From: Oceanospirillaceae bacterium | Lineage (GTDB): Bacteria > Pseudomonadota > Gammaproteobacteria > Pseudomonadales > Balneatricaceae | Reading direction: 5' to 3' | DNA length: 37,556 bases | Assembly: GCA_013215505.1 (NCBI GenBank) | Contig: JABSQZ010000036.1 | Span: 1 to 37,556 of the forward strand | Part shown: positions 81 through 37,484 of the stretch, one piece after another | Numbering within the stretch: position 1 is the stretch's first letter | Layout: the number at the start of each line of letters is the position of its first letter | The notes under the pieces: model-generated | Database searches by the model: none | Told to the model about the DNA's origin: nothing | What the model saw: the letters and a program-made list of their open reading frames with translations, nothing else | Program-made: the position numbers and the translations under genes

Positions 81-115
81 CTTCCAACTTCCACCTTCCA
101 CCTTCCAACTTCCAA
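81..115 (-). repeat. Heptamer tandem array after the XRE regulator stop codon
   Basis: Five 7-bp units without interruption. Read on the minus strand from 115 downward they are TTGGAAG, TTGGAAG, GTGGAAG, GTGGAAG, TTGGAAG. The first unit abuts the TAG stop codon (118-116) of the regulator gene, and the seven bases ending in that stop (TAGTTAG) also fit the family consensus TNGNNAG. Member of the dispersed heptamer family found at several other gene ends in this window. Confidence 0.9.
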
Positions 116-703
116 CTAACTATAGCTGACCACTAAAAAGCACACCGCTTCGACACTGTCAGTATTCTTTATGCAGTGCTCTACATCACCGCGGTAGTGC
201 GCAGAATCGCCCTCGCGCAAAACACTGCTATCCACCCCGGCAATGATCTCGACACTGCCTTTTTCGACGGTGATAAACTCTCTGGCCCCCTCAAAGTGTG
301 CACCACTTTGCAATTGCGCGTGTGGGCTAATCGACAGCTCATAGAACTCGATGTTTTTTTCCATATTTAATGGCGACAGAGTACGTATTTTACACTGGCT
401 GTCGTTTCTAAATAAAAAGGCCGGATCGTCGCGGCGAATCACTTCAATGGCGGAAGCTGTCCAGGGCTCGTCCACCAGCTCACCCACAGAGATAGAAAAG
501 GCCTTGGCGATCTTACAGGCAACCGCCAGGGTGGGGTTCGCCTGACCTCGCTCTATCTGCGATAACATCGAGCGACTGACCCCGGAAATCTCGGAGAAAC
601 TCTCCAGCGTCCAGCCTTTTTCCTTGCGTAAGCCCTTCACTTTTTCACATAAAACCTGGGCGACAGGTTCTATGCCTTTTCTGTTTTTTATCTGAGTGCT
701 CAT
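116..703 (-). CDS. XRE-family transcriptional regulator with C-terminal cupin domain
   Basis: A 195-residue protein with an N-terminal helix-turn-helix (about residues 20-75, including SRSMLSQIERGQANPTL) and a C-terminal cupin fold (about 115-190, with GAREFITVEKGSVEI). This two-domain design is typical of small-ligand-responsive regulators such as the SutR/YdcN and PuuR-like groups. The gene is divergent from tdh-kbl with about 170 bp between the start codons, so control of threonine degradation is a reasonable inference but is not shown. An ATTGGTCCAAT near-palindrome (705-715) lies immediately upstream of its start codon and could serve autoregulation. The stop codon TAG abuts a heptamer array. 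The ligand cannot be named from sequence. Confidence 0.9.
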   Translation of the reverse strand: MSTQIKNRKGIEPVAQVLCEKVKGLRKEKGWTLESFSEISGVSRSMLSQIERGQANPTLAVACKIAKAFSISVGELVDEPWTASAIEVIRRDDPAFLFRNDSQCKIRTLSPLNMEKNIEFYELSISPHAQLQSGAHFEGAREFITVEKGSVEIIAGVDSSVLREGDSAHYRGDVEHCIKNTDSVEAVCFLVVSYS

Positions 704-704
704 T

Positions 705-715
705 ATTGGTCCAAT
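705..715. promoter_or_regulatory. Candidate operator (ATTGGTCCAAT) at the XRE regulator start
   Basis: An 11-bp near-palindrome with perfect 5-bp arms (ATTGG/CCAAT) overlaps the position expected for the ribosome binding site of the minus-strand regulator gene. A second short inverted repeat (GTACA 806-810, TGTAC 821-825, 10-bp spacer) lies on the tdh side. Both are plausible sites for a dimeric helix-turn-helix protein. Neither has independent support. Confidence 0.35.
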
Positions 716-874
716 GAAATTCTAATATAAGAGAAATAATTCTTTTAAAATGGATTTTTTATCATTAGTATTGTTTTCCATCATACAGGATATATTTCCA
801 CTAAGGTACAATTTGAGCGATGTACTATCTTGTATATTGCACACAGACAATCACCGACAGACAGGAGAGCGGTA

Positions 875-1915
875 ATGGAAACCATGCAGGCGCTGGTAAA
901 GAGAGAGGCAAAAACTGGATTGTGGCTAGAGACCGTGCCAGTGCCGGAGATGGGCATCAACGATGTTAAAATTCGGGTGCTGAAAACCGCTATTTGCGGC
1001 ACTGACTTACATATCTACAACTGGGACGAGTGGGCACAGAAGACTATTCCAGTGCCTATGGTCATAGGTCACGAATTTGTCGGTGAAGTAGTCGCAGTGG
1101 GAGATAACGTCAATGCCTTTCAACCCGGAGAGATCGTCTCTGGCGAGGGCCACGTCGTCTGTGGTCGCTGTCGCAACTGCATGGCCGGTCGCCGCCACTT
1201 ATGCGCTCATACCAGCGGTATTGGAGTCAACCGCAGCGGCGCTTTTGCCGAATACGTGGTGCTACCGATGACCAATGTCTGGGAACACCGCCCGGGCATA
1301 GATCTGGATGTCGCGGCCATGTTTGATCCTTTTGGCAACGCCGTGCACACCGCGCTACAATTCGACCTGTTCAGTGAAGACGTATTAATCACCGGTGCCG
1401 GCCCGATTGGCTGCATGGCTGCCGCCGTCTGCAAGCAGGCGGGTGCCCGCCATATAGTGATCACCGATTTAAACCCTAAGCGACTGGCGATGGCAGCCAA
1501 ACTAGGGGCGACCCGCACCGTAGATGTACGCACAGAAAATTTGACCGATGTACAAAAACAGCTGGGGATGACCGAGGGATTTGACGTCGGCCTGGAAATG
1601 TCCGGCAGCCCTGTCGCCTTTAATGACATGATCCAAAACATGTGCCACGGTGGTAAAATCTCCCTATTGGGCATTCCCAGTGAAGAGAAAGCCACCGACT
1701 GGAACACCGTGATCTTTAACATGCTAACCATCAAAGGTATATATGGTCGCGAGATGTATGAAACTTGGTACAAAATGTCGGCAATGATTGAAAATGGTCT
1801 GGATATCAGCTCCATCATTACCCACAGATTACCCTATACAGAATTCCAGCAGGGCTTCGATGCCATGCTCAGTGGCGACGCGGGAAAAGTAATTCTCGAT
1901 TGGCACACTCTATAA
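875..1915 (+). CDS. tdh: L-threonine 3-dehydrogenase
   Basis: Zinc- and NAD-dependent oxidation of L-threonine to 2-amino-3-ketobutyrate, the first step of threonine to glycine conversion. The 346-residue protein carries the family's catalytic zinc ligands (Cys41 in AICGTD, His66-Glu67 in GHEF), the four structural-zinc cysteines (96, 99, 102, 110) and a Rossmann motif [18 protein letters not shown] and [17 protein letters not shown] are characteristic of Tdh. I chose the ATG at 875 because AGGAGA (863-868) precedes it at good spacing and homologues begin with this segment; an in-frame ATG at 830 would add 15 unrelated residues. kbl follows after 15 bp, so the two form an operon. Confidence 0.96.
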
Positions 1916-1930
1916 TTTTAGGAGAACAGT

Positions 1931-3118
1931 ATGTACGGCAAGTTCCAACAACACCTACACGGCCAGTTAGACGAAATTCGCAGCGCTGGCCTGTATAAAA
2001 ACGAGCGACAGATTCTCTCGGCACAAAATACTAATATCTCAGTTAAACAGGGCAAAGTGCTAAACCTCTGCGCCAACAATTATCTGGGTCTGGCGCAACA
2101 TCCTGAAGTATTGGCAGCGGCCCACAAAGGCCTGGACGAGTGGGGCTACGGCATGGCCTCAGTGCGTTTTATCTGCGGCACTCAGCAAATCCACAAACAG
2201 TTAGAGCAGCAGCTAACGGATTTTTTGGGCACCCAAGATACCATCCTCTACCCTTCATGTTTTGATGCCAACGGCGGCTTATATGAAACGTTGCTCGGCC
2301 CCGAAGATGCGGTGATCTCAGATTCGCTCAACCACGCCAGCATCATCGACGGTATCCGACTCTGTAAAGCCAAGCGCTACCGTTACAAAAATAACGATAT
2401 GGCTGATCTCGAGCAGCAATTGATAGCCGCCGACGCAGCGGGGGCCCGCTTTAAGTTAATCAGTACCGACGGCGTTTTCTCCATGGACGGTTTTTTTGCG
2501 CAACTGGATAAAATTTGTGATCTGGCGGAAAAATACAACGCGCTGGTACATTTTGATGACAGCCACGCCGTCGGTTTTGTCGGCAAAACCGGCCGCGGAA
2601 CCCACGAGCACTGCAACTGTATCGACAGAGTAGACATTACCACTGGTACTTTAGGCAAGGCATTAGGCGGCGCCAGCGGCGGCTACACCAGCGGTAAAAA
2701 AGAGATCATCGAGTTATTGCGTCAGCGCTCACGTCCCTATCTTTTCTCCAACACAGTCGCGCCACCAGTAGTAGCAGGCGGTATCGCAGCCCTTAAATTA
2801 CTCACAGATTCCACTGAGCTGCGCGATAAAGTAGAAGCCAACGGTAAGTATTTCCGCGAGGGCATGCAGGCGATAGGCTACGATCTATTACCGGGCAACC
2901 ACCCGATTATCCCGATCATGCTTTACGATGCACGCAAGGCCGCAGAGCTCGCTGAGCGCATGCTGACCAAAGGCATCTATGTGACGGCCTTCTCTTTCCC
3001 GGTAGTACCCAAAGAGCAAGCGCGCATCCGCACCCAAATTTCAGCGGCACACAGCATTGCCGATCTGGACTTTGCAATCGCCTGCTTCAAAGAAGCTAAA
3101 GAAGAAATGGGGATATAG
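1931..3118 (+). CDS. kbl: 2-amino-3-ketobutyrate coenzyme A ligase (glycine C-acetyltransferase)
   Basis: PLP enzyme of the alpha-oxoamine synthase family that cleaves 2-amino-3-ketobutyrate with CoA to glycine and acetyl-CoA, completing the pathway started by Tdh. Length (395 residues) matches the family closely. Visible landmarks are LCANNYLGL near residue 46, DDSHAVGF near 209 and the PLP lysine in [10 protein letters not shown] (Lys243). AGGAGA lies upstream of the ATG. It is co-transcribed with tdh. The TAG stop codon is followed within seven bases by a heptamer array, and a much longer array begins about 110 bp downstream. Confidence 0.97.
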
Positions 3119-3125
3119 GAAATAG

Positions 3126-3153
3126 TCGTGAGTAGCGAGTCGGAAGTAGGAAG
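3126..3153 (+). repeat. Heptamer array just after kbl
   Basis: Four in-phase units TCGTGAG, TAGCGAG, TCGGAAG, TAGGAAG, beginning 7 bp after the kbl stop codon TAG (3116-3118). Unit sequence varies while the 7-bp phase and the TNGNNAG frame are kept. Confidence 0.9.
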
Positions 3154-3231
3154 TAAAAACAGGGGGAGTATTGGCGAAATAGCTGATGTCGGACGGCAGT
3201 CTTGAGCCCATAAATAGCCGCGAGGCGTACG

Positions 3232-3315
3232 TCGGAAGTTGGAAGTTGGAAGTTGGAAGTTGGAAGTTGGAAGTTGGAAGTTGGAAGTTGGAAGTTGGAA
3301 GTTGGAAGTTGGAAG
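3232..3315 (+). repeat. Long heptamer array, eleven identical units
   Basis: One TCGGAAG followed by eleven perfect TTGGAAG units (3239-3315), 84 bp in total. It is the longest and most homogeneous array in the window, which suggests recent expansion by replication slippage. It runs in the kbl sense direction and faces the oppositely oriented arrays of rlmI (3324-3389). Confidence 0.95.
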
Positions 3316-3338
3316 TCTAAATACTTACGACTTCCAAC
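3308..3338. terminator. Hairpin between the facing arrays of kbl and rlmI
   Basis: GTTGGAAGTC (3308-3317) and GACTTCCAAC (3329-3338) are exact reverse complements separated by 11 bases. The stem is made from the last units of the kbl-side array and the first units of the rlmI-side array. Lying between convergent genes it could act as a bidirectional terminator. There is no U-run, so this remains an inference. Confidence 0.5.
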
Positions 3339-3389
3339 TCACGACTTTGTTTGTCTTTTAACTTACGACTTCCTAATTACGACTGTCTA
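3324..3389 (-). repeat. Heptamer arrays after rlmI (two blocks)
   Basis: Plus-strand units CTTACGA, CTTCCAA, CTCACGA (3324-3344) and CTTTTAA, CTTACGA, CTTCCTA, ATTACGA, CTGTCTA (3355-3389). On the rlmI sense strand these read as TCGTAAG/TAGGAAG-type units. The blocks are out of phase with each other by 3 bp. The array starts 8 bp after the rlmI TGA stop codon (3400-3398). Confidence 0.85.
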
Positions 3390-3397
3390 CTGTGGTT

Positions 3398-4597
3398 TCA
3401 CATCCCTGGCAGTATTCTGCAGGTGATGGATTTTAAGTATTCGGTCTCGGGGATCGCCGCGTGGATCGGGTGATCTGGTCCTTGATGTCCCTGTTCTATC
3501 ACCTGTGCGTTGCGATCCAGCTCGCGGGCGTTAGAGCGGATGATATCGATTAAGCTGCTGCGCTCCAAGTGCATAGAGCATGAGGCGCTGATTAAAATAC
3601 CGTTTTTGCTCAGCAGGCGCATCGCCAGATTGTTGATCCGGCCATAGGCGCGCTCGCCTGCGCGGATATCTTTGCGTCGGGTGATAAACGCCGGTGGATC
3701 GACAATAATCACATCGTATTTTTCCTGCTCCTGGATCAGTGCCTTACAAGAGTCAAAGGCATCACCTTGCAGGGCGATTAATCTATCTTCAGCACTGTTC
3801 AGTTTCGCGTTTTCCACTGCCACATCTAAAGCGTATTCAGAGGAATCGACACAAGTGACTTCACTGGCACCTGCCGCCAAAGCCTGCACTCCCCAACCAC
3901 CTACGTAGCTAAACAAATCTAATACTCGCTTGTCTTTCACATGGCGCTGCATAGTGGCGCGCGCCAGACGGTGATCGTAGAACCAACCGGTTTTTTGGCC
4001 ACTTAACACTGGGGCTAACAGTGACACACCGTTTTCTTCCAGTGGTACCAGCTCAGGTATTTCACCCTGTACTACTTCTACATAACTCTCCAGCCCTTCG
4101 GTAGTGCGCATTTTTCCGTCACAACGCAACACTATGGCGCTGGGCATAAAGACTTTATTCAGTGCCGAGACAATCTCTTGCACTACAGCTTCCATACCTG
4201 CAGTTGAGATCTGCACTACAAAAACGTCATAGAAGCGATCGATTACCAACCCTGACAAACCGTCTGAATCGCCATAAACCAATCGGTAGCAGGGAGCATC
4301 AAAACAAGCTTCACGCAGCGACAGCGCGATGTTTATACGGTGTACTAACAGCGAGCGATCCAACCGGTACTTAATATCGCGGCCAATAATACGCGCGCAG
4401 ATCAGCGTCTGTGGGTTGACATAGGCAACACCTAAAACTTTGCCACTGGCTGCTTGTACAAGTACTTGCTCACCGGCAGTAAAGTCTTTTAAGGGGGTCT
4501 TTTTGTTATCTACTTCGTTGGAGTAGATCCAGACATGACCACCGCGCAAGCGACGATCGGCACCGTTATTAAGGGCAAGAGTTCTAAGAGATGACAT
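3398..4597 (-). CDS. rlmI: 23S rRNA (cytosine-C5)-methyltransferase, RlmI type
   Basis: SAM-dependent RNA methyltransferase of 399 residues. It has an N-terminal PUA domain (about 1-75, GGHVWIYSNEVD), the linker signature QKTGWFYDHR (201-210), SAM motif I VLDLFSYVGGWG (225-236), DPPAF (300-304) and a cysteine in SASCS (Cys340) in the position of the catalytic nucleophile of m5C enzymes. These match E. coli RlmI (YccW), which modifies C1962 of 23S rRNA. The paralogous RlmL/K families are longer or lack the PUA. It is convergent with kbl and about 155 bp downstream of ubiI on the same strand; a hairpin between them suggests separate transcription. Confidence 0.92.
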   Translation of the reverse strand: MSSLRTLALNNGADRRLRGGHVWIYSNEVDNKKTPLKDFTAGEQVLVQAASGKVLGVAYVNPQTLICARIIGRDIKYRLDRSLLVHRINIALSLREACFDAPCYRLVYGDSDGLSGLVIDRFYDVFVVQISTAGMEAVVQEIVSALNKVFMPSAIVLRCDGKMRTTEGLESYVEVVQGEIPELVPLEENGVSLLAPVLSGQKTGWFYDHRLARATMQRHVKDKRVLDLFSYVGGWGVQALAAGASEVTCVDSSEYALDVAVENAKLNSAEDRLIALQGDAFDSCKALIQEQEKYDVIIVDPPAFITRRKDIRAGERAYGRINNLAMRLLSKNGILISASCSMHLERSSLIDIIRSNARELDRNAQVIEQGHQGPDHPIHAAIPETEYLKSITCRILPGM

Positions 4598-4627
4598 CTA
4601 GGTTCCAGTGATTTAATAAGTTTAACG

Positions 4628-4652
4628 CGACTGCACAGTTACAGTGTAGTCG
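4628..4652 (-). terminator. Hairpin between ubiI and rlmI
   Basis: CGACTGCAC (4628-4636) and GTGTAGTCG (4644-4652) pair over 9 bp with one G-T wobble and a 7-base loop. It lies in the gap between two minus-strand genes, a position fitting transcription termination after ubiI. No clear U-tract follows. A weaker GC-rich element and a T-run (minus strand about 4738-4717) lie closer to the ubiI stop codon and may do this job instead. Confidence 0.35.
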
Positions 4653-4752
4653 TAAATTTGGCTGAGCATTTTACCTGCACTAGCGACAAATTGTTACTAA
4701 TAGCTGAAGATCAGCACAAAAAACCCACAACTCGCGCTTAGCGACACCGATG

Positions 4753-6054
4753 CTACTGCGCCAGTTTTTGCCGGGCAAGTTGTGGCAGCTCACCCGATAA
4801 ACCCATGGCCTGCTGCATAACATGCTGTTTCAGTGGCTGAGTTTTATCCAGCAGATTCATCCCCAAGTTCCGGGCGATGATCAGCGGAGCAGGTTGCGGA
4901 TCAAACAGCCACTTAAAGGCCTGCATAGCTGCCGACATTTTCAGGTTATCTAAGTGGCGAGCGCGCTGAAATTGCTTCAGCAGTGCCTCGCTGCCAATGC
5001 TCTGCCCACGTTGTCGCCCTCTATCTAAAGTCTCTGCCAAAACGGCCGCATCCAGCAGCCCTAAATTCACCCCTTGACCTGCCAGGGGGTGAATAGTGTG
5101 GCAGGCATCACCGATCAGAGCCAAGCCCTGTTGCACATAATGTTTAGCATGGCGCTGCCGCAGTGGGAAAACCGCCCGCTGACAGACCTTGGTCACTGTG
5201 CCCAGTCGCTGTTCAAATTCCCTGGTTAACGCGCTACAAAATTGCTGCTCATCCATCGCCATCAAACTGCTGGCGTGGGCCACAGATGTAGACCAGACAA
5301 TACTGCAGAGATGCCGATTAGCTAGAGGAAGAAAAGCCAGTGGACCATCATTGGTAAAACGCTGCCAGGCGGTGCTCTGGTGCTCCCGCTCGGTGGATAC
5401 TGTAGCGACGATGGCGTGATGCCCATAGTCCCACTGCCACAGGGGAATAGCGGCTAACTGGCGAATTTTCGACATGGCGCCATCGGCCCCGACAATCAGC
5501 CGGGCACTAAAAACACTTTCTGTGGTTGGGCCACTGTCACTGCTCATACGGCAAGTTAACTGTCGCAGCCCATTGTCCGGCTCAGACATAGCAACGACTT
5601 TAGCTGCGCCCATTATCGGTAATTGACACTCTTTAGCAGTGCTCAGCAGTGCCGCCAGTGCGATCTTGTTTTCGACAATATGTCCAAGTCGCTGCTGCTG
5701 CACTTGTGCGCCAGAGAAATGCACACTGCCACTGCCCTCACCATCCCAGACTTGCATGTGCCGGTAGGAACTGAGCCGCAATGCAGCGATTTTCGACCAG
5801 ACATTCAGATTATCCAGGATATTCTCAGAGGCGCAGGTCAGGGCACTGACTCTGTTGTCGTAGCTGTCAATATTCTCAAGGTCGCTGCAGCTGCGTGACA
5901 TGTTTTCGGCCAGCGCAAAAAAATCGTCTTCGCGGCCATCAATCACTAACACTTTAAAGCCGTACTGCTGCACTGCCAGAGCCGCGGTCAGCCCCACCAT
6001 ACCTGCGCCAACGACGATCAGGTCTAAATCAGTATACTTTTGCTCGCTGTGCAT
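4753..6054 (-). CDS. ubiI: Ubiquinone biosynthesis FAD-dependent hydroxylase, UbiI/VisC type
   Basis: Flavin monooxygenase of the UbiH/UbiF/VisC family that hydroxylates the ubiquinone ring (C5 in E. coli UbiI). The 433-residue form shows a dinucleotide motif VVGAGMVGL near the N-terminus, RLGHIVENKIALAALL, GADGAMSKIR and the FAD signature GDACHTIHPLAGQGVNLG. HLCSIVWS and WDYGHHAIVATV are closer to VisC than to UbiH. I placed the start at 6054 because AAGGAAG precedes this ATG and sequence upstream is the end of ubiH; an open frame to 6138 adds 28 unrelated residues. It is the last gene of ygfB-pepP-ubiH-ubiI, 11 bp after ubiH. Confidence 0.92.
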   Translation of the reverse strand: MHSEQKYTDLDLIVVGAGMVGLTAALAVQQYGFKVLVIDGREDDFFALAENMSRSCSDLENIDSYDNRVSALTCASENILDNLNVWSKIAALRLSSYRHMQVWDGEGSGSVHFSGAQVQQQRLGHIVENKIALAALLSTAKECQLPIMGAAKVVAMSEPDNGLRQLTCRMSSDSGPTTESVFSARLIVGADGAMSKIRQLAAIPLWQWDYGHHAIVATVSTEREHQSTAWQRFTNDGPLAFLPLANRHLCSIVWSTSVAHASSLMAMDEQQFCSALTREFEQRLGTVTKVCQRAVFPLRQRHAKHYVQQGLALIGDACHTIHPLAGQGVNLGLLDAAVLAETLDRGRQRGQSIGSEALLKQFQRARHLDNLKMSAAMQAFKWLFDPQPAPLIIARNLGMNLLDKTQPLKQHVMQQAMGLSGELPQLARQKLAQ

Positions 6055-6065
6055 CTTCGCTTCCT

Positions 6066-7319: not shown

Positions 7320-7335
7320 CAGCCCGCTTCTCTGT

Positions 7336-8652: not shown

Positions 8653-8763
8653 GCTTAATCCTTTAAATTATTGTTATTAATGGGCAGAGAAATATTGTCT
8701 GAGCAAATCCACAACGGGCCTCTTTACAGCCCTCTGAGCAGATACCGGACTTATTCGCATGAC

Positions 8764-9366: not shown

Positions 9367-9430
9367 AGGTTTCCATCGAGCTAGAGTAATAAATAGCGAC
9401 AGCAGTAGCGAAACACTGCCACCTCCAGAC

Positions 9431-9436
9431 ATTATA
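9431..9436 (-). promoter_or_regulatory. Promoter -10 element for ygfB-pepP-ubiH-ubiI
   Basis: Perfect TATAAT on the minus strand, about 65 bp upstream of the ygfB ATG. No good -35 hexamer is seen at 16-18 bp. The predicted transcript start is near 9424. Confidence 0.5.
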
Positions 9437-9624
9437 CTCAAATTAGATCTGAAAACATCACAGAGTGCATTGAAGTTCTCCCGAGGCTGCTAATATGCCT
9501 ATTTCTTTTAATTTCTTTATGATTATCCCAACAAATTTAGTGATATACATGTAATAATCAGCTGCATAAAATATCGATAACAATTGAGCCCCGCTCGAAA
9601 CTCTTGGTTTCTTTGGATTAACAG

Positions 9625-10289: not shown

Positions 10290-10307
10290 CTCAACTGTTA
10301 CATCGAC

Positions 10308-21101: not shown

Positions 21102-21824
21102 ATGTTAAAAGCTACCATGTTTTTTCTGCTGATATTTTGCGCCGCACTGATAGCCACTGCACCTATGCAGTGGGTTTACAGCCAGCTAGATAACAGCGAT
21201 GATCCGATAACATTGAGCAATATCAATGGCAGTGTCTGGTCTGGCAGCGCCTCAGTGCAAGTGCGTAACACTCAGCTAAACTACCAGGCGGACAACTGGC
21301 ACTGGGATTTTCAGCCGCTGTCACTGCTCAGTTTAGAGCTCAACTGGCGCCTGACCCATCAACAGCAAAAGATCGATGCCGAAATCGCCACTAGCGCCTT
21401 TGCTTTTGGCAGCGATTTAAATATCCAGCTGCACTCCGACATACAAAGCTTAGTGCCCATCAATCCGCTGTTTAGTACTATATCGGGGCAGTTCAGCGCC
21501 CAATTAGAAAACTTTAGCCACAGCAACTGCAATGCTCATAGAGGAGAAGTGCAACTGCAGCAACTGCAATTTATGGGGTTCAAGCTACAGCAACTCAACG
21601 CCCATATCAGCTGTAGCCCAGAAGGCCTCTATAAAATAAGCTACCAGAGCCAGGACCCAGCCACCAACATCAAAGGCAGCCTGACGATCGACCAACAGGG
21701 CAGCTATCAGTCCTCAATGACTGTCAGCTCCAGTGATTCGCAAGTGTCAGAGCAGTTGGCGACATTGGCGACTAAGACGTTGAGTAAGGGGAAATATTTG
21801 ATAGAGACGGGTGGGGACTATTAG
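21102..21824 (+). CDS. gspN: Type II secretion system protein GspN
   Basis: A 240-residue bitopic protein with an N-terminal membrane anchor or signal (about 1-21, FFLLIFCAALIATAPMQWVY) and a periplasmic beta-rich domain (GSVWSGSASVQVRN, WHWDFQPLSLL) typical of GspN. GspN is accessory in most systems. It is the last gene of the operon. The TAG stop codon is followed at once by heptamer units, with no independent hairpin terminator, and fau faces it. Confidence 0.9.
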   Translation: MLKATMFFLLIFCAALIATAPMQWVYSQLDNSDDPITLSNINGSVWSGSASVQVRNTQLNYQADNWHWDFQPLSLLSLELNWRLTHQQQKIDAEIATSAFAFGSDLNIQLHSDIQSLVPINPLFSTISGQFSAQLENFSHSNCNAHRGEVQLQQLQFMGFKLQQLNAHISCSPEGLYKISYQSQDPATNIKGSLTIDQQGSYQSSMTVSSSDSQVSEQLATLATKTLSKGKYLIETGGDY

Positions 21825-21852
21825 TTGGAAGTCGCAAGTCGTCAGTCGCAAG
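21825..21852 (+). repeat. Heptamer array directly after gspN
   Basis: Four in-phase units, TTGGAAG, TCGCAAG, TCGTCAG, TCGCAAG, starting at the base after the gspN TAG stop codon. It is separated by TTAAAAAA (21853-21860) from the oppositely oriented array of fau. Confidence 0.9.
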
Positions 21853-21860
21853 TTAAAAAA

Positions 21861-21895
21861 CTCACTACTTACGACTTACGACTTACGACTGACTA
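21861..21895 (-). repeat. Heptamer array overlapping the 3' end of fau
   Basis: Five units on the plus strand: CTCACTA, three CTTACGA, CTGACTA. On the fau sense strand they read TAGTCAG, TCGTAAG (three times), TAGTGAG. The fau stop codon TAA (21885-21883) lies inside one of the TCGTAAG units, so the array forms part of the coding sequence. Confidence 0.9.
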
Positions 21896-22488
21896 CTCCA
21901 GCTTCGCTGGTTTGTAACAATCCCCGACAACGGAATATCCCAGCTCTCTACCGCCAACTTATCAACTTGCTGTAATTGATGGGCCAGTCCTATTAGTACC
22001 GGCAGATGTTTTTCTGCGCAATCAGTCGCTGTTTCCAACATAAAGGCAAAACTGCGATCGTAGTAGCCGCCCCCCATACCCATGCGGTTGCCCTGATCAT
22101 CAAAGGCGACTAAAGGGAGCAGTACTAAATCTAATTCAGCTGCCGGGATGCTTTTCTGGTAGGGAGTAGCAGGTTCCTCTATGGCGTATTTATTGCGGCA
22201 CATGAGGGTGTTGTTATGGTAGTGCACAAACAGTAACTGATTATGTAAATCCGGGTCTAATACCGGTAAATACACTTGCTTGCCCATAGCCCAGCAGTGG
22301 TCGATAACTGATTGCGGGTCTATTTCACCGTCGCTGGCTAAATACAAGGCGATATGTTCAGCGCTGTTAAAACTGTTTAGTTGTTGCAGATGATGCAATA
22401 GCGAAGCGCCAGAGAGTTGCTGTTGTTCTGCGCTTAATGCTTTACGGGCATCGCGCATTTGTCGGCGTAATTGTTGACGGGCTTCCAT
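21883..22488 (-). CDS. fau: 5-formyltetrahydrofolate cyclo-ligase
   Basis: ATP-dependent conversion of 5-formyl-THF to 5,10-methenyl-THF (YgfA/MTHFS family), 201 residues. Conserved blocks are LRRQMRDARKAL at the N-terminus, IALYLASDGEIDP, LVLLPLVAFDDQGNRMGMGGGYYDR and SWDIPLSGIVT. The family normally ends soon after WDIPL-VVT; here the last residues (SSQS) and the TAA stop codon are encoded by a heptamer array that has entered the reading frame. The gene lies about 120 bp downstream of 6S RNA on the same strand, the usual ssrS-fau arrangement. Confidence 0.94.
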   Translation of the reverse strand: MEARQQLRRQMRDARKALSAEQQQLSGASLLHHLQQLNSFNSAEHIALYLASDGEIDPQSVIDHCWAMGKQVYLPVLDPDLHNQLLFVHYHNNTLMCRNKYAIEEPATPYQKSIPAAELDLVLLPLVAFDDQGNRMGMGGGYYDRSFAFMLETATDCAEKHLPVLIGLAHQLQQVDKLAVESWDIPLSGIVTNQRSWSSQS

Positions 22489-22610
22489 AGCGTTAATCTC
22501 TGTGCATAAATAGGCTCAGATGATACAGGATAAACACAATTGTTAATGCCCAAATACGCTGCGGGTGCAGCTAAAAGCGTAAAACCAAACGGGAGATAAA
22601 AAAGAAAGGT

Positions 22611-22786
22611 GGCCCCCAAAGTGCCGGTATCGGCTACGGCCCTGAACCCGTAGGTTCAAGGAGGGAGCTACTGGGATACATTAGGCTTTCCGTAAACGGA
22701 CATGCACACAATACCCACAAAACAGCACCCATATTGGGAAAAATCGGCTCGAGGGACTACGCCAACGATCGAACACCCCAGGGACT
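22611..22786 (-). ncRNA. ssrS: 6S RNA
   Basis: Regulatory RNA that mimics an open promoter and binds sigma-70 RNA polymerase. On the minus strand the sequence contains elements shared with E. coli 6S: GTCCCTGGGGTGTTCG near the 5' end, GAGCCGAT, AAGCCT and the 3' hairpin CCTTGAACCTACGGGTTCAGG. The terminal stem can be seen: GTCCCTGGGGTG (22785-22774) pairs over 12 positions, including G-U pairs, with CACTTTGGGGGC (22623-22612). Length is about 176 nt against 184 in E. coli. Ends are estimated from the -10 box and the closing stem. fau lies downstream as in most relatives, but zapA does not lie upstream. Confidence 0.93.
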
Positions 22787-22792
22787 AAATTC

Positions 22793-22879: not shown

Positions 22880-22907
22880 TAATGAGTCGGAAGTAGGAAG
22901 TCGCAAG
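22880..22907 (+). repeat. Orphan heptamer array
   Basis: Four in-phase units TAATGAG, TCGGAAG, TAGGAAG, TCGCAAG. Unlike the other arrays it follows no recognisable plus-strand gene, so it may mark the 3' end of a lost gene or an unannotated transcript. Confidence 0.8.
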
Positions 22908-24349: not shown

Positions 24350-24420
24350 AATTACATACTTAAGGAAGGTCCCTCGCCTTTAACTTTAAAGTCGATAAGC
24401 CAGTGTTTGGCCTGACCTAC

Positions 24421-24490
24421 CTCACGCCTCACGCCTCACGCCTCACGCCTATTTTTTCCTAGCTACTTACGACTTCCTACTTGCTACTTT
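24421..24490 (-). repeat. Heptamer array after the VF530-type gene, two unit types in one phase
   Basis: Ten successive 7-bp blocks in strict phase on the plus strand: four CTCACGC (24421-24448), two divergent T-rich blocks (24449-24462), then CTACTTA, CGACTTC, CTACTTG, CTACTTT (24463-24490). On the sense strand of the upstream gene the proximal units read TAGAAAG, TAGCAAG, TAGGAAG, TCGTAAG and the distal ones GCGTGAG. The TAG stop codon of the gene (24493-24491) forms the first three bases of the first unit. Confidence 0.9.
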
Positions 24491-24745
24491 CTATTTCTGT
24501 TTATTCCAAGGATTATCCAGGTACTCCAGATACAGCGCCTCTACCTTGTCTCTGGCCCACTGAGTGCGGCGCAAAAACTTTAAGCTAGATTTAATGCTCG
24601 GGTCACTGTTAAAGCAGTTGATGTTGATCCGCAGTCCCAGCTCTTCCCAGCCGTAGGCATCTACCAATTCCTGTAGAATATCAGCCAGCTTTTTACCGTG
24701 TAGTGGATTATTGGCTTGTTTGTTTTGCTCGTTGTTGTCGCTCAT
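24491..24745 (-). CDS. VF530 family (DUF2132) protein
   Basis: An 84-residue protein. [49 protein letters not shown] and YLDNPW match the VF530 family, a small helical fold suggested to bind DNA. The function is not established. It is monocistronic: argH lies upstream on the same strand, but a strong hairpin separates them. Its TAG stop codon merges with a heptamer array. Confidence 0.88.
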
Positions 24746-27565: not shown

Positions 27566-27568
27566 TTG

Positions 27569-31111: not shown

Positions 31112-31125
31112 CGTTGCAACAGCTT

Positions 31126-31154
31126 AAAAGCACTGGAAAAACACAGTGCTTTTT
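31126..31154 (+). terminator. Intrinsic terminator of hemCDXY
   Basis: Perfect 10-bp stem AAAAGCACTG (31126-31135) / CAGTGCTTTT (31144-31153), loop GAAAAACA, with the T-run part of the 3' arm. It lies 14 bp after the hemY stop codon and is the best intrinsic terminator in the window. Confidence 0.85.
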
Positions 31155-31250
31155 AATTTCTAGTCCAGAAAAAATACTGACAAGCCCGCAGAAAAACAAT
31201 AAATAGTTTCACAGCTTGTCCTGTATCCACCGCGCTGTTTAAGGATTTTT

Positions 31251-32309: not shown

Positions 32310-33255
32310 GCTGGAAAATTTTTTACAGCAGTTACCGGTCGCGGCTGCGGGGCTGGCGCTGGGCATCGCCAGCTTGGGCCTGACCTCAGGGACACTCTAT
32401 CCGCAATTGGCATATTTGCAGTTAGTCACTAGCTTGATAGCCGTGCTGTTAGTCATTTTAGTCGCCAGCAAGCTACTGCTGGCCCCACAGAGTTTATGGC
32501 AGAGCATCTCTGATCCAGCGGCCGGGCCTATGTTGCCCACTATCGCTATGGTGTTAATGATCGCCAGTGAAAACCTGCCTGTAGCAGCGGCCTACTATCT
32601 GTGGGGCGCTGCGGTCGTGTTACACTTACTGCTGTTACTCGCTTTTATCATCAGCCGCTGGCAGAATTTCCAACTGCAGCAGCTGGCCCCCACCTGGTTT
32701 ATCCCGCCAATAGGTATCGCCGTCGCCTCGCTGACCAACCCCGGAGCCGAAACATTTACCTTTAGTTACCTGCTGTTAAATTTCGCTATTTGCTGCATGT
32801 TATTGATGCCGTTGATGATCTACCGACTCTGGCGCCACCCGGCACTAGCAAAACCGATTAAGCCAAGTTTAGCGCTGTTTGCGGCACCGCCTAATTTATG
32901 CCTGGCAGGCTATTTAACTTTCTATCAGAGCCCCGGGTTAATAGCAGTGAGCCTCTGGGTGGTGCTGGCTATGGCGATGAGTTTGTTTAGCTATTACTGT
33001 TTTATTCGCCTCTACCGGGATAGTTTCAGCCCGGTATTTGCCGCTTTCACTTTCCCGGCGGTAATCGGCGCTGCGGCTATGCAGCAGACTGCTGAATTTT
33101 TCGCCTACCGCGGGGTCGACGCTCAGCTAGTGCAATTATTTTCCAGTATTGCCCAAGTGCAAATATTGTTAGCCGCGCTGATTACCACCTTGGTCTGCTA
33201 TAGATTTATCAAACATTTTTACCAGATGCATTCGCAAGCTACTGTAGCGAGTTGA
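32299..33255 (+). CDS. TDT/SLAC1-family (TehA-like) membrane transport protein
   Basis: A 318-residue, highly hydrophobic protein with about ten membrane segments. The first helix (PVAAAGLALGIASLGL) and the internal FIPPIGIAVASLTNPGAE segment fit the tellurite-resistance/dicarboxylate transporter family, which includes TehA and plant SLAC1 anion channels. Substrate cannot be inferred. The start lies inside the 3' end of the flavoprotein gene, with AGGAG (32285-32289) upstream. No TehB-type methyltransferase is nearby, so tellurite resistance is not implied. Confidence 0.82.
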   Translation: MHIKLENFLQQLPVAAAGLALGIASLGLTSGTLYPQLAYLQLVTSLIAVLLVILVASKLLLAPQSLWQSISDPAAGPMLPTIAMVLMIASENLPVAAAYYLWGAAVVLHLLLLLAFIISRWQNFQLQQLAPTWFIPPIGIAVASLTNPGAETFTFSYLLLNFAICCMLLMPLMIYRLWRHPALAKPIKPSLALFAAPPNLCLAGYLTFYQSPGLIAVSLWVVLAMAMSLFSYYCFIRLYRDSFSPVFAAFTFPAVIGAAAMQQTAEFFAYRGVDAQLVQLFSSIAQVQILLAALITTLVCYRFIKHFYQMHSQATVAS

Positions 33256-33305
33256 AACTAAAGCGTAATTAATCAGTCGAAGCTCGGGAGTTGTTACACA
33301 TTTAA

Positions 33306-33317
33306 GGGCAATTGCCC
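33306..33317. promoter_or_regulatory. Perfect 12-bp palindrome upstream of the metallo-hydrolase gene
   Basis: GGGCAATTGCCC lies 8 bp upstream of a possible -10 hexamer (TACTAT, 33325-33330) and about 70 bp before the start codon at 33388, in the spacer region of the likely promoter. A repressor operator is plausible. No regulator gene is adjacent. Confidence 0.4.
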
Positions 33318-33387
33318 ACTTGTGTACTATGCTCAATTGATGTCGTTAAACCTGCAAAAGTAAGCCAACTACTTAAAAGGAAATAGC

Positions 33388-34278
33388 ATGTCTATAAAAC
33401 CTTCTCCACTGGCTGTATTAGCCCTTTCACTGATGTTTGTGGCGGGATCCGTCGCTGCGGCCGACCCCAAGATAACGGCCGAGCAAGTCAAAGATAATAT
33501 TTATATGCTGCAAGGCGGTGGCGGCAACGTAGGCCTGTTTATCGGTAAAGACGGTACTTTTTTAATTGACGATAAATTCGCCCCGATGAGCGCGGCGATC
33601 TTAGCGCAGATAAAAAAGCTTGGCGGTGATACCCCCAAGTATTTACTCAATACTCATTTCCATGGCGATCACACGGGTGGCAACCAAAATTTTGGCCAGC
33701 AGGGGGCGATCATTATCTCCCACGACAATGTACGCAAGCGCTTGCAACAGGGCTCTTATATCGCCGCTTTTGATATGAAAACCCCGCCTGCGCAGGCGCC
33801 TGCACTGCCGGTGATTACCTTCGCCCAGAACATCCACTTGCACCTCAACGGTGACAACGTTAGTGCCATCCATATCCCCAGCGCGCACACCGATGGCGAC
33901 AGCATCATTCACTTTAAAAAAGCCAACGTAATCCACACCGGTGATACTTTCTTTAACGGCTTTTATCCTTTCATCGATGCAGCCAACGGCGGCACCGTCA
34001 AGGGCATGATTGCCGCTGCCGATACCATCCTGGCACTGGCCAATGATCAAACTAAAATCATCCCAGGACACGGCCCACTAGCTAACAAGGCGGATTTGCA
34101 AAGTTTTCGCGACATGTTAGCGACTGCCTATAAAAGTTTGTCGGCACTGAAAAGTCAGGGCTTAAACGCCGATCAGGCAGTCCAAAAGAAGCCATTAGCC
34201 GCACTGGATGCGCAGTGGGGCAAGGGCTTTATGGGCACGGATAAGTGGATCAAAGTAGTCTATCCAGCGGTTGATTAA
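33388..34278 (+). CDS. Exported metallo-beta-lactamase-fold hydrolase
   Basis: A 296-residue protein with an N-terminal signal peptide (about 1-25, hydrophobic core LAVLALSLMFVAG, cleavage near SVAA-AD), so it is likely periplasmic. Metal ligands are His90, His92, Asp94 and His95 in NTHFHGDHTGG, a later His in IPSAHTDGDS, the Asp in HTGDTFF and His in IPGHGPL. This is the general MBL hydrolase pattern; nothing points specifically to beta-lactam hydrolysis, and exported quinoprotein-relay-type (SoxH-like) hydrolases look similar. AAAAGGAAA precedes the ATG. The gene is convergent with the next one, with only 9 bp between stop codons. Confidence 0.88.
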   Translation: MSIKPSPLAVLALSLMFVAGSVAAADPKITAEQVKDNIYMLQGGGGNVGLFIGKDGTFLIDDKFAPMSAAILAQIKKLGGDTPKYLLNTHFHGDHTGGNQNFGQQGAIIISHDNVRKRLQQGSYIAAFDMKTPPAQAPALPVITFAQNIHLHLNGDNVSAIHIPSAHTDGDSIIHFKKANVIHTGDTFFNGFYPFIDAANGGTVKGMIAAADTILALANDQTKIIPGHGPLANKADLQSFRDMLATAYKSLSALKSQGLNADQAVQKKPLAALDAQWGKGFMGTDKWIKVVYPAVD

Positions 34279-34298
34279 AGGATTGCTCTAACCGCTGG
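34264..34298. terminator. Shared hairpin across two convergent stop codons
   Basis: CCAGCGGTT (34264-34272) and AACCGCTGG (34290-34298) are exact reverse complements with a 17-base loop. The loop holds the stop codon of the metallo-hydrolase and most of that of the convergent M20 hydrolase; each arm also codes the last residues of one gene. It probably serves as a bidirectional terminator. Confidence 0.6.
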
Positions 34299-35508
34299 CA
34301 AGTTGCAAAACAACCCTCAGCAATACATTGGCTCCGGCCTCAATATCAGCAGTTTCTGTATGCTCTGTGATGTTGTGGCTTATCCCTGCTACGCTGGGGA
34401 CAAAGATCATCGCCGTCGGGCAGTTAGGGGCAAAAGATTGTGCATCGTGCCCAGCGCCGCTGGGCATACGCAATACACTATGCCCTTGAGCCAACGCAGT
34501 TTGTTCAACTAAGTTCAGCAGCTGTGGGTCGAAATCTACCGGGGCAAAACGCACTAACTCTTTGCAGTTAATCTGCACCTTTTCGCTGGCGGCAATTTTT
34601 TTAATATAAGCCGCTAGCTGTTGCTCGGCACAGTGCAGTAACTGCTGATCAGTATTACGCAAATCGACACTGATACTAGCACTATTAGCGATCACATTGA
34701 TCAGGTTCGGTTTTAACTCTATAGAGCCAACAGTGGCCACTTGATCTCCGCCCATTTTCAGCGCCAGCTCACGGACAAAAGTGGCTATTGCCATCGCCAC
34801 ATAACCGGCATCGCGACGCAGATGCATTGGGGTGGTACCGGCGTGGTTAGAGACTCCTGAAATATCAATTTGGCTCCAGGAAATTCCCTGCACACCCTCA
34901 ACTACACCAATAGTGATGCCCTGTTGCTCTAGAACCGGGCCCTGTTCTATATGCAGCTCTAAAAAGCTGTGAACTCGTTGACTGCCGCATTCCAGCTGAC
35001 CCGCGTAACCTATCTGCTCTAGCTGCTGGCCTAAATGGCTGCCGTCAAAACCAATAGTATCGAGCATTTGTTGAATATCCAGATGCCCTTGATGCGTCAT
35101 ACTTCCCATCATATCCGGGGTATAGCGAACCCCTTCCTCGTTAGTAAAAAAACCGACCGCAATCGCCCGTTCAGTCTCAATGCCTGCATCATTTAAACAG
35201 GCAATTACTTCCAACCCAGCCAGCACCCCTAAGTTGCCATCGTAATTACCACCAGTGGCCACGGTATCTATGTGCGAGCCGATCAATATCGGCTGCGCGT
35301 GCACAGTGCCTGCGCGGGTAGCAATCACATTCCCGAGCTGATCTATGCTCACCTCTAGTCCCAATTCACGCATCCAACTGACTACTAAATCGCGCCCCTG
35401 CTTATCGGCCTCACTCAAGGCAATCCGAGACACCCCACCACCGTCCAGCGCACCACATTGCGCTAACTGCTGCAGCCGCCCGGTTAATCGTTCAATATCA
35501 ATTTCCAC
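34288..35508 (-). CDS. Zn-dependent M20 amidase, hydantoinase/carbamoylase family
   Basis: A 406-residue member of the allantoate amidohydrolase / N-carbamoyl-L-amino acid hydrolase / beta-ureidopropionase group. Bimetal ligands are visible: His79 (GSHIDT), Asp90 (GGNYDGNLG), Glu124-Glu125 (FTNEEG), His186 (ELHIEQGPV) and His354 (SGAGHDAQSF). NHAGTTPMHLRRDA and NVIANSASISVDLRNT are typical. I chose the GTG at 35508, preceded by AGGGG 7 nt away; the frame is open to a GTG at 35532, but that part consists of degraded heptamer repeats. No other allantoin genes are present, so carbamoyl-amino-acid hydrolysis is equally possible. It is downstream of the M20 amidohydrolase gene on the same strand. 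Confidence 0.88.
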   Translation of the reverse strand: MEIDIERLTGRLQQLAQCGALDGGGVSRIALSEADKQGRDLVVSWMRELGLEVSIDQLGNVIATRAGTVHAQPILIGSHIDTVATGGNYDGNLGVLAGLEVIACLNDAGIETERAIAVGFFTNEEGVRYTPDMMGSMTHQGHLDIQQMLDTIGFDGSHLGQQLEQIGYAGQLECGSQRVHSFLELHIEQGPVLEQQGITIGVVEGVQGISWSQIDISGVSNHAGTTPMHLRRDAGYVAMAIATFVRELALKMGGDQVATVGSIELKPNLINVIANSASISVDLRNTDQQLLHCAEQQLAAYIKKIAASEKVQINCKELVRFAPVDFDPQLLNLVEQTALAQGHSVLRMPSGAGHDAQSFAPNCPTAMIFVPSVAGISHNITEHTETADIEAGANVLLRVVLQLASG

Positions 35509-35534
35509 TCTTAAACCCCTCACTCTACTCACTG

Positions 35535-35604
35535 CTAATTACTTACCACTTACGACTTCCTACTTCCTACTTCCTACTTCCTACTTCCTACTTACGACTT
35601 ACGA
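35535..35604 (-). repeat. Heptamer array between the two M20 hydrolase genes
   Basis: Ten in-phase units. On the sense strand, starting at the base after the TAG stop codon (35607-35605), they read TCGTAAG twice, TAGGAAG five times, TCGTAAG, TGGTAAG, TAATTAG. Less regular units continue toward the next start codon. Two unit types are interleaved without loss of phase. This is the only array lying inside a probable operon. Confidence 0.93.
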
Positions 35605-36786
35605 CTATGTTTTCAAACATTGCTGAACCAACTGCACCCAATAACTAGCACCTAACCCTAAGATGCCATCGTTAAAATCGTAGTGAGGGTTGTGTAAAGC
35701 ACAGCCGCCAATCGACTCCGTGCCGTTGCCAATCAAGGCATAACAGCCAGGTTTGACCCGTAACATGCTGGAAAAATCTTCAGACACAGTAATTGGCTCG
35801 CAATTACCATTGACCTGGTCGCGACCAAAAACGTGTTCGGCGGCGCTGACACAATTAGCGGTCTCGGTATTGCTATTGATCAGCGGATAAAAGGCGTGGC
35901 GAAACTCAAATTTATGCTCGGCACCTGCGGCACTGCACAACCCTGCAACTATCTCACCCATGCGCTGTTCCAGCTTTGCCAGGGTTACTTCGTCATAGCA
36001 GCGACAGTCACCTTTGAGCAGCACTTTTGAGGGGATCACATTGACAGTGCCATCAGTAATAAACTCGGTCACCGAAACGACCGCCGGCTGGCTTATGACA
36101 CTTAAATTACGCGACACTATCGTCTGCAGCGCCAGCACTATCTGTGAACCCAGCACTATTGGGTCAACCCCTACATGTGGCATAGCAGCGTGGCCACCCG
36201 CTGCCTCTATGCTAATTTCAAAACCGCTCTCGCTGGCCATGAGTGCCCCGCTGCGCACCGCAAACTCACCCGCAGCTAACCCAGGCAAGTTGTGCAAACC
36301 ATACACTGCCTGTATATCGAAACGGCTGAACAGCCCGTCATCAATCATTGCCTGAGCACCAGTTCCGTGTTCTTCTTCAGGCTGAAAGATAAAGTACACC
36401 GTACCCTCAAAGTTTTTAGTCTTGGCTAAATGTGCCGCCGCACCGAGCAGCATACTGGTGTGGCCATCGTGACCGCAGGCATGCATTTTCCCGCTGTTTT
36501 GTGAGCGATATGCAAAAGTGTTTTGCTCATTTATTTGCAGTGCGTCCATATCGGCGCGCAAACCAATACTGGCGGTACTTGTACCATTGCGTAAAATACC
36601 CACCAAGCCGGTTCTACCGATATTAGTCACTACTTCTATGCCAAAGCTGCGCAGTTTCTCTGCGACAAAAGCAGCGGTTTGCTGCACTTCAAAGCCACAC
36701 TCTGGATGAGCGTGGATTTTCCTGCGCCACTGCTGCATCTGCTCAATTAACGGCTCGCTTAAAGATACTTTGCTAGATGAGGTCAT
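35605..36786 (-). CDS. M20D-family amidohydrolase (N-acyl amino acid / hippurate hydrolase type)
   Basis: A 393-residue metallopeptidase-fold amidohydrolase. Motifs are RKIHAHPECGFEV, GLRADMDALQI, Cys104 and His106 in MHACGHDGHT, Glu137-Glu138 in FQPEEEHGTG, His165 in GLHNLPG and a final metal His in LHNPHYDFND. It is likely cytoplasmic and hydrolyses an N-acyl or similar amide of an amino acid; the precise substrate is unknown. GGAG lies before the ATG. It is divergent from an Lrp/AsnC regulator and upstream of the carbamoylase-type gene, suggesting an amino-acid-derivative catabolic unit under that regulator. The TAG stop codon abuts a long heptamer array. Confidence 0.9.
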   Translation of the reverse strand: MTSSSKVSLSEPLIEQMQQWRRKIHAHPECGFEVQQTAAFVAEKLRSFGIEVVTNIGRTGLVGILRNGTSTASIGLRADMDALQINEQNTFAYRSQNSGKMHACGHDGHTSMLLGAAAHLAKTKNFEGTVYFIFQPEEEHGTGAQAMIDDGLFSRFDIQAVYGLHNLPGLAAGEFAVRSGALMASESGFEISIEAAGGHAAMPHVGVDPIVLGSQIVLALQTIVSRNLSVISQPAVVSVTEFITDGTVNVIPSKVLLKGDCRCYDEVTLAKLEQRMGEIVAGLCSAAGAEHKFEFRHAFYPLINSNTETANCVSAAEHVFGRDQVNGNCEPITVSEDFSSMLRVKPGCYALIGNGTESIGGCALHNPHYDFNDGILGLGASYWVQLVQQCLKT

Positions 36787-36854
36787 TACTCACTCCGAAA
36801 AAATTTGACTATCAGTTCATTGCTCTAATACTAGCGACTTAAAGTGAAGGATTT

Positions 36855-36880
36855 CTGCATTAGTGAATTAAAAAATGCAG
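36855..36880. promoter_or_regulatory. Inverted repeat in the divergent M20-lrp region
   Basis: CTGCATT (36855-36861) and AATGCAG (36874-36880) form 7-bp arms around a 12-bp A/T-rich spacer. It could be an operator half-site pair or a short hairpin on the M20 side of the divergent promoter. Confidence 0.35.
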
Positions 36881-36912
36881 TTTATCGGCGCTGATTAACT
36901 CAGAGGTTATTA

Positions 36913-36928
36913 ATTTATGCGCATAAAT
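36913..36928. promoter_or_regulatory. Perfect 16-bp palindrome, candidate Lrp/AsnC operator
   Basis: ATTTATGCGCATAAAT is fully self-complementary and lies about 53 bp before the Lrp-type gene and 127 bp before the divergent M20 gene. Lrp/AsnC proteins bind roughly 15-bp A/T-flanked palindromes near their own genes, so this is the leading operator candidate for local and self regulation. Confidence 0.55.
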
Positions 36929-36980
36929 AGCTTAAACTCATACAGCGAAATAATTAACCCCCTTTGATCAGGAGACATCA

Positions 36981-37469
36981 GTGGCTGGTAACAACCTACA
37001 ATTGGATGATTTTGATACCCATATACTGCAACTGATGCAAGTGTCTAATCGTATCACCAGCGAGCAAATTGCTGAAAAAATTGGCCTTTCTGCCGCCGCC
37101 GTGCAGCGCCGGATTAAACGCTTGCGCGAAAGCAAAGTGATAAGCGGGGATGTCTCAATCGTCAACCCTAAGCTGCTGAATCGCCCCCTCACCTTAGTTG
37201 TGCAGGTCACCCTGGAGCGCGAGCGCGCCGATCTGATGGATGCGTTTAAAAAAGAGATGAAAGCTAACCCGATAGTACAGCAGTGCTACTACGTAACCGG
37301 CAGCTCAGATTTTATCCTGATTATCACCGCCAGCGACATGGACGACTACGAAGCTTTTACCCGCAGCTGCTTTTTCGACAACAGTAATATTCGTAACTTT
37401 CAGACTAATGTGGTGATGGACAGAGTGAAGGTGGGATTGACCGTGCCGGTGGAACGACGGGAGGCGTAG
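36981..37469 (+). CDS. Lrp/AsnC family transcriptional regulator
   Basis: A 162-residue regulator with an N-terminal helix-turn-helix (about 8-60, LDDFDTHILQLMQ and SEQIAEKIGLSAAAVQRRIKRLRESKVI) and a C-terminal RAM domain (about 70-145, with VTGSSDFILIITASDMDDYEAF) that normally binds an amino acid. The start is GTG at 36981 with AGGAGA (36970-36975) at ideal spacing. It probably controls the divergent hydrolase genes through the palindrome between them, and the effector may be an amino acid they release; both are inferences. The TAG stop codon is followed by two heptamer units. Confidence 0.92.
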   Translation: MAGNNLQLDDFDTHILQLMQVSNRITSEQIAEKIGLSAAAVQRRIKRLRESKVISGDVSIVNPKLLNRPLTLVVQVTLERERADLMDAFKKEMKANPIVQQCYYVTGSSDFILIITASDMDDYEAFTRSCFFDNSNIRNFQTNVVMDRVKVGLTVPVERREA

Positions 37470-37470
37470 G

Positions 37471-37484
37471 GTGTAAGTCGGAAG
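37471..37484 (+). repeat. Short heptamer array after the Lrp-type gene
   Basis: Two units, GTGTAAG and TCGGAAG, one base after the TAG stop codon (37467-37469). It is short enough to be chance alone, but orientation, position and unit sequence match the other arrays. Confidence 0.6.

Follow-up and report, generated by a model that had tools for sequence, protein, structure and literature searches.

The short tandemly repeated repetitive (STRR) sequences of cyanobacteria are heptameric intergenic repeats, and the repetitive extragenic palindromic and bacterial interspersed mosaic elements (REP/BIME) of enterobacteria are dispersed sequences that sit at gene 3′ ends as palindromic hairpins of ~35–40 nt. 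Here we describe a family of degenerate 7-bp tandem repeats, the TNGNNAG arrays, that came to attention in a 37,556-nt stretch of DNA from Oceanospirillaceae bacterium (GenBank assembly GCA_013215505.1, contig JABSQZ010000036.1; hereafter the window). The window is the entire contig C32 of a 52-contig, 5.73 Mb genome (G000; assembly 98% complete). Unlike the palindromic hairpin units of REP/BIME, the arrays found here are direct heptamer repeats that are mostly unpaired and unstructured.

The closest known family is the Xanthomonas repeat (GGGANTN)n, or GGGAATC, which according to Rehm et al. (2015; PMC4692102) forms 186 and 183 dispersed arrays and 70 and 75 inverted pairs in two species. These arrays often lie at stop codons, most are transcribed, and a G-quadruplex explanation has been proposed for them. 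Both families have a 7-bp unit with fixed and degenerate positions, are dispersed, form inverted pairs, occupy the coding strand at a place overlapping stop codons or up to 50 nt past them, and have sites in common between species. They differ in consensus (AGTNGNN here, GGGANTN in Xanthomonas), and the TNGNNAG arrays lack canonical G-quadruplex capacity. A further preference in Xanthomonas, for the non-coding strand ahead of open reading frames (ORFs), has little counterpart here: of 110 perfect motif arrays, just five come within 20 nt of a start codon. Four units are clearly commonest in Xanthomonas, whereas strict runs here comprise 31 of three units and 32 of four, and convergent inverted pairs are fewer here (13 among 152 arrays of at least three units). 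The same report describes GGGGA(C/T)T heptamers in Nostoc/Anabaena, intergenic repeats that favour the coding strand just past ORFs and thus have the same place preference as the TNGNNAG arrays with another sequence and in another phylum, and states that many bacteria have an excess of heptamer repeats in their genomes, with a function still to be found and G-quadruplexes as the leading idea. Marine Beggiatoaceae carry TAACTGA direct repeats (MacGregor 2015; PMC4679880); these consist of one unit, with related heptamers rarely or never repeated, and are reported to lie largely at start codons in the Guaymas genome, whereas the TNGNNAG unit is degenerate and follows stops. The first-pass annotation of the window knew of no such heptamer family in gammaproteobacteria, a statement that the Xanthomonas and Beggiatoaceae repeats contradict. 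The literature searches made here returned no earlier report of TNGNNAG arrays, and the passages of the Osedax paper covered by them (PMC10192322) make no mention of such repeats. We judge that the family belongs to an already known and still unexplained kind of stop-proximal heptamer repeat, of which the TNGNNAG version is new.

A strict scan of the window identified nine in-phase TNGNNAG runs of at least three units, and none occurred in 200 dinucleotide-preserving shuffles. Genome-wide, the three-copy pattern matched 1,325 times (555 + 770; overlapping matches rather than arrays), versus 9 (6 + 3) for the reversed pattern. Arrays were surveyed in a non-random sample of 2.38 Mb (42% of the genome), comprising the first 800 kb of C1, whole contigs or long parts of C4, C5, C7, C9, C10, C11, C18, C20 and C21, 20 kb from each of eleven other contigs, and the window; the long contigs were mostly picked after inspection of their first 20 kb. 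Perfect arrays of at least three copies numbered 150 at period 7 and 75 across all other periods from 4 to 24, 31 of the latter being 4-mers (one shuffle yields 32 4-mers). TNGNNAG, in any rotation and on either strand, fits 126 of the 150 period-7 arrays, against ~5% expected of random heptamers (14/256). These scans confirm that the repeats are real and genome-wide, and they bear out the first-pass annotation, which had proposed a 7-bp-phased family, dispersed and degenerate, whose consensus is near TNGNNAG, and had named a controlled genome-wide scan as its check.

The unit refines to T-H-G-B-R-A-G across 347 collapsed units, with G at 4% in position 2, A at 4% in position 4 and a purine at 92% in position 5. 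Array ends are sharp: AG precedes 116 and T follows 99 of 137 arrays, so that the element reads AGT(NGNNAGT)n. The base totals of 1024 sense units are G 2767, C 572, A 2064 and T 1765.

Position and strand were recorded relative to the stop codons of genes predicted by a home-made ORF scorer (coding fraction 0.76), for which reason some neighbour genes are missed. After 15 arrays at contig edges and three within genes were dropped from 152 strict arrays (at least three units), 134 were classified: convergent gaps hold 57, tandem gaps 68 (42 in sense and 26 in antisense orientation) and divergent gaps nine. Sixty-nine of the 134 are sense and start within 20 nt of a stop codon, where 3.4 (maximum 11) were expected from random intergenic placement and 21.1 (maximum 33) from placement within the same gaps, with 1,000 draws each. 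In tandem gaps the median distance to the stop is 10 nt for sense arrays and 154.5 nt for antisense arrays. Among the perfect 7-mer arrays, from which 16 without both neighbour genes were dropped, 55 of 110 motif arrays are found no more than 20 nt from a stop (53 sense, two antisense), compared with 2 of 24 non-motif heptamers (Fisher p = 1.6e-4) and 5 of 29 other-period intergenic arrays (Fisher p = 1.5e-3; 12 arrays inside genes set aside, 4-mers excluded). The stop-proximal place is a property of the motif, not of repeats as such. The assignment of the repeats to gene 3′ ends in the first-pass annotation thus stands as a sense-strand enrichment in the 42% sample, although two arrays of the window, 22880–22907 and 3232–3315, abut no protein stop.

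The stop codon falls in array register in 30 of 66 array genes, against 13.4 expected (p = 4e-6; three phases defined post hoc), and TAG is the stop of 28 of these 66 genes, compared with 24.5% elsewhere. Arrays thus often supply the stop codon. A role as a triple-frame stop cassette was rejected because stops are not enriched in the units: 212 of 347 collapsed units (61%) contain one, versus 58% in random TNGNNAG. Replication-strand polarity was rejected as well, the C1 sample holding 15 plus-strand and 28 minus-strand arrays intermixed along its length. As to the contigs themselves, C1 (888 kb) has 44.8% GC and a negative GC skew in 16 of its first 16 50-kb bins, and the window has 50% GC; the first 20 kb of C3 (39.9% GC) has a coding fraction of just 0.33 by the same ORF scorer and looks mostly non-coding.

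The internal make-up of the arrays differs between mixed and uniform runs. Runs of at least three units without identical neighbours comprise 12 of three units, 14 of four, two of five and none longer; uniform runs reach 12 units, and the longest strict run has 21. Once identical neighbours are collapsed, 144 of 152 arrays consist of one to four blocks. Changes between duplicated blocks were counted at 35 boundaries, in a test that required one block to be motif and left the other free; positions 2, 4 and 5 account for 53 of the 59 changes, and motif stood on both sides at 29 of the 35. Unit identity drops with distance, from 0.65 at lag 1 to 0.42 at lag 8, and the 316 unlike neighbour pairs differ at one, two and three positions in 125, 96 and 74 cases. 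In our reading, a constrained core of at most about four units is the older part, and expansion by slippage is younger. The first-pass argument that slippage of a single unit could not produce the mixture thus holds for the mixed arrays, although the long uniform ones look slippage-expanded.

Our preferred reading, which we offer as plausible at somewhat less than an even chance, is that the arrays are a dispersed 3′-untranslated-region (3′-UTR) element of mRNA, made up of about four 7-nt modules that a putative factor reads. Its strongest rivals are neutral slippage and a transcription-coupled origin. Under the former, heptamers would slip neutrally and survive where an insertion harms little, for example between stop and terminator. 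The uniform runs, arrays of up to 21 units, the drop of unit identity with distance, the different units of different species and the scarcity of arrays between divergent genes (9/134) are all consistent with slippage, but this explanation gives no reason for the 53:2 strand bias, for block changes mostly at three of seven positions or for the limit of mixed arrays near four units, and other tandem repeats are not concentrated at stops. We regard neutral slippage as unlikely, while granting it a real chance. Under the latter rival, R-loops or single-stranded DNA just past the stop, at the point of ribosome release, would give rise to arrays with a G/A-rich non-template strand and without any recognition factor. 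That sense units are rich in G and A and biased in strand and towards stops fits such an origin; it does not predict that T1, G3, A6 and G7 are fixed, that mixed arrays stop near four units or that arrays end sharply (AG...T), and non-motif heptamers near stops amount to only 2 of 24, a small sample. A transcription-coupled origin seems doubtful to us.

The arrays are unstructured (median −0.05 kcal/mol per nt). An intrinsic terminator was called for 15 of 66 array genes, and the array lies before the terminator in 15 of 15. Terminator rates are 10/41 for array genes versus 97/393 elsewhere in convergent gaps and 5/25 versus 117/650 in tandem gaps; a terminator function was rejected on this equal frequency with or without an array. 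Rho utilisation on the antisense strand was considered only, and the antisense of TCGTAAG holds no YC steps. Cyanobacteria, which have a parallel heptamer family, are not known to have Rho.

These structural data also bear on a REP/BIME-like hairpin, in which inverted arms would form an mRNA stem that blocks exonucleases or ends transcription. Neighbouring pairs within 150 bp are convergent in 13 cases and divergent in two, an inverted partner was seen by eye at 7 of 10 loci in the two gammaproteobacterial genera described below, and the inverted pairs reported for the two Xanthomonas species (PMC4692102) point the same way. Single arrays are unstructured, however, terminator frequency is unaffected, and an inverted partner within 150 nt was found for 1 of 26 stop-proximal arrays in tandem genes versus 13 of 43 in convergent gaps. 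The 1/26 figure rules out a hairpin as the general basis in tandem genes, and we consider the hairpin explanation improbable overall. G-quadruplex elements, as proposed for the Xanthomonas GGGANTN repeat, are suggested by the similar stop-codon place and strand (PMC4692102) and by at least four GG runs in 59 of 165 arrays, a set in which runs were joined across one non-motif unit. Four GGG runs occur in 0 of these 165 arrays and any GGG in five, and the common units TCGTAAG and TAGCGAG contain no GG. The G-quadruplex explanation thus fails here and is very improbable as an account of this family; the same stop-codon place and strand without G-quadruplex capacity further show that it cannot hold for heptamer repeats in general.

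The variety of units raises one other source, the addition of heptamers from an RNA template by a telomerase-like or retron-like reverse transcriptase. Unlike neighbours commonly diverge at more than one position, which would fit units taken from a small library, but RVT_1 (PF00078) has no match in G000 or in the array-rich relative G003, with a match in 27 of 60 family genomes. As far as a 98% complete assembly allows, an RVT_1-type enzyme is ruled out as the source in the own genome, and we give this origin hardly any credence.

Related genomes offer a comparison of sites. By the protein of one gene (1931–3118), the kin of G000 are Rs1, a symbiont of the deep-sea worm Osedax, and three Oceanospirillaceae metagenome-assembled genomes (MAGs), at 86–89% identity. 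All seven genomes of the genus have TNGNNAG matches, from 15 to 1,325, the count in G004 (15 versus 16) not exceeding its control. Eight loci of G006, a relative in the same genus, were selected because they bear arrays; one (L269) has no match in the G000 sample and another (L272) none across its array, and the six that align do so at 73–86% nucleotide identity, with a G000 array at the same site in 6 of 6. At two of the G006 loci a gene lies among the arrays. At L266 (1085–2840) a DDE transposase gene (PF01609) splits a heptamer array whose counterpart in G000 (C16, ~9397) is intact, and at L267 (1050–2500) an MFS transporter gene (PF07690), absent from the same site in G000 (C1, ~441280–441375), lies between two heptamer arrays with a common stretch of ~30 bp. 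The MFS case suggests that recombination at arrays may be a route by which genes are gained or lost. Ten 7-mer arrays of relatives were also placed: six are no more than 15 nt from a stop (in G001, G002, G003, G023 and two named MAGs), another is separated from its stop by 69 nt, one is 3 nt away from a start codon, and the remaining two sit at a contig end with no stop called on either side. A second form, AGCTNNN, is present in 14 of 60 family genomes, with 303 matches in G002 and 47–65 in G004, G008, G035, G060, G061 and G068.

More widely, 25 of 276 sampled gammaproteobacterial genomes, the own genome included, have TNGNNAG arrays of at least four units. The array unit in two genera, g77 and g135, is TNGCKAG. 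Arrays of exactly four units account for 14 of 14 listed in G179, 9 of 11 in G284, 7 of 9 in G121 and 6 of 9 in G247, by hand count and under a search pattern that demanded at least four units. Among the exactly-four arrays listed, identical neighbours number 3 of 39 in g77 (0.077 versus 0.191 expected) and 13 of 69 in g135 (0.188 versus 0.188); among all 43 arrays listed they number 25 of 64 in g77 (0.39 versus 0.235 expected) and 16 of 77 in g135 (versus 0.18). Slippage thus acts there too without visibly making the four-unit arrays, so that the g77 total speaks for the neutral slippage rival and the lack of excess once longer arrays are excluded speaks against it. The inverted partners at 7 of 10 loci in these genera consist of two to four units. 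In G300 (183 + 152), G155, G299 and G205, reversed control matches outnumber pattern matches, a sign of other heptamer families. Locus L286 of G326, a ~0.4 Mb genome, carries TTGTTAG and TTTGTGG tracts in a stretch of 26% GC that has no stop-to-stop frame longer than 210 nt in 1.6 kb.

The reading of the arrays as a modular 3′-UTR element starts from features that were observed directly: position, strand, 7-nt phase, fixed T1, G3, A6 and G7, a limit near four in arrays without identical neighbours, and sites in common with a relative. That arrays follow a strand rule at stops, come before terminators and lack structure points to single-stranded mRNA as the target, and the fixed bases, sharp ends and limit near four point to a reader with about four 7-nt modules. 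Arrays would accordingly be transcribed as part of the mRNA, and their core, as single-stranded RNA, would be recognised by a factor, or a multimer, that has some four 7-nt modules. Such a factor might act on mRNA just vacated by ribosomes, for example by protecting or marking the 3′ end, and slippage would later stretch single units into uniform runs of up to 21 units.

Several observations weigh against this reading. Sixty-five of the 134 arrays are not sense arrays within 20 nt of a stop, and we offer no explanation for them; they include antisense arrays, which make up 26 of the 68 in tandem gaps and lie at the median of 154.5 nt given above. Four units are not clearly favoured over three (14 versus 12). 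Lone single-unit changes between identical neighbours strike fixed positions in 8 of 18 cases (10.3 expected if unconstrained), so that the uniform runs are not visibly under selection. Heptamers vary among members of one genus and family, which is unexpected with a fixed factor, and no binding factor turned up, none having been searched for. The gene at 1931–3118(+) (PF00155), which we take to be kbl, illustrates the variation: downstream of the kbl-like gene, DT_75 has a different heptamer array, AGCTAAA, DT_74 has a plain hairpin-and-T terminator, and in Rs1 no array was seen, ~1.2 kb of other sequence filling the gap.

The arrays of the window are collected in Table 1. Nine of the ten spans listed in the first-pass annotation contain repeats, and the tenth, at 37471–37484, is weak. 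One listed span, 24421–24490, resolves into two arrays, and the array at 3232–3315 faces the inverted one at 3324–3389, which is made up of four units at 3362–3389 (two of them strict in-phase neighbours) followed by three at 3324–3344. Between the M20 peptidase gene and the next tandem gene, 34288–35532(−), most of the space is taken up by the array at 35535–35604, and the site of the array at 21861–21895 has arrays on both strands in G006. A 6S/SsrS RNA (22609–22787, minus strand; 94.2 bits) lies upstream of the 5-formyltetrahydrofolate cyclo-ligase gene.

Table 1. Heptamer arrays of the window and an associated gene.
Feature	Position	Strand	Context
Six-unit array TAGTTAG TTGGAAG TTGGAAG GTGGAAG GTGGAAG TTGGAAG	81..122	-	Listed before as 81-115
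HTH/cupin regulator gene	116-703	-	Stop codon within first unit of array 81..122
Mixed four-unit array TCGTGAG TAGCGAG TCGGAAG TAGGAAG	3126..3153	+	7 nt past stop of 1931-3118(+) (PF00155)
Expanded array, one TCGGAAG and eleven TTGGAAG	3232..3315	+	113 nt past nearest sense stop (1931-3118 gene)
Interrupted array	3324..3389	-	Begins 8 nt past stop of methyltransferase gene 3398-4597(-), sense to gene
Mixed four-unit array	21825..21852	+	Immediately past stop of type II secretion protein N gene 21102-21824(+)
Five-unit array	21861..21895	-	Includes stop codon of 5-formyltetrahydrofolate cyclo-ligase gene 21883-22488(-)
TAATGAG and three strict motif units	22880..22907	+	No protein stop adjoining; beyond 6S RNA 5′ end
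Five-unit TNGNNAG array	24459..24493	-	First unit gives TAG stop of VF530-family gene 24491-24745(-)
Related GCGTGAG array (motif with T1 to G)	24420..24450	-	Downstream of array 24459..24493
Nine strict motif units and TAATTAG	35535..35604	-	Immediately past stop of M20 peptidase gene 35605-36786(-)
GTGTAAG TCGGAAG, single motif unit	37471..37484	+	1 nt past AsnC-type regulator stop (37469); weak, not counted

The sense arrays right past stop codons suggest an unrecognised signal in mRNA tails, whose place is tied to the motif rather than to repetition as such and which can be resolved into two layers, one of mixed arrays with no more than about four units and one of subsequent slippage. A broader conjecture, which we hold to be rather unlikely, is that in many bacterial lineages the mRNA bears, just past the stop, a lineage-specific tag made up of some four 7-nt modules, read by a modular RNA-binding factor that drifts in specificity between genera, and that the over-abundance of heptamers in bacterial genomes is the slippage shadow of this tag. 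If this were true, the tag specificities would be AGTNGNN in the present organism, TNGCKAG in two other gammaproteobacterial genera, AGCTNNN in sister genomes and GGGANTN in Xanthomonas.

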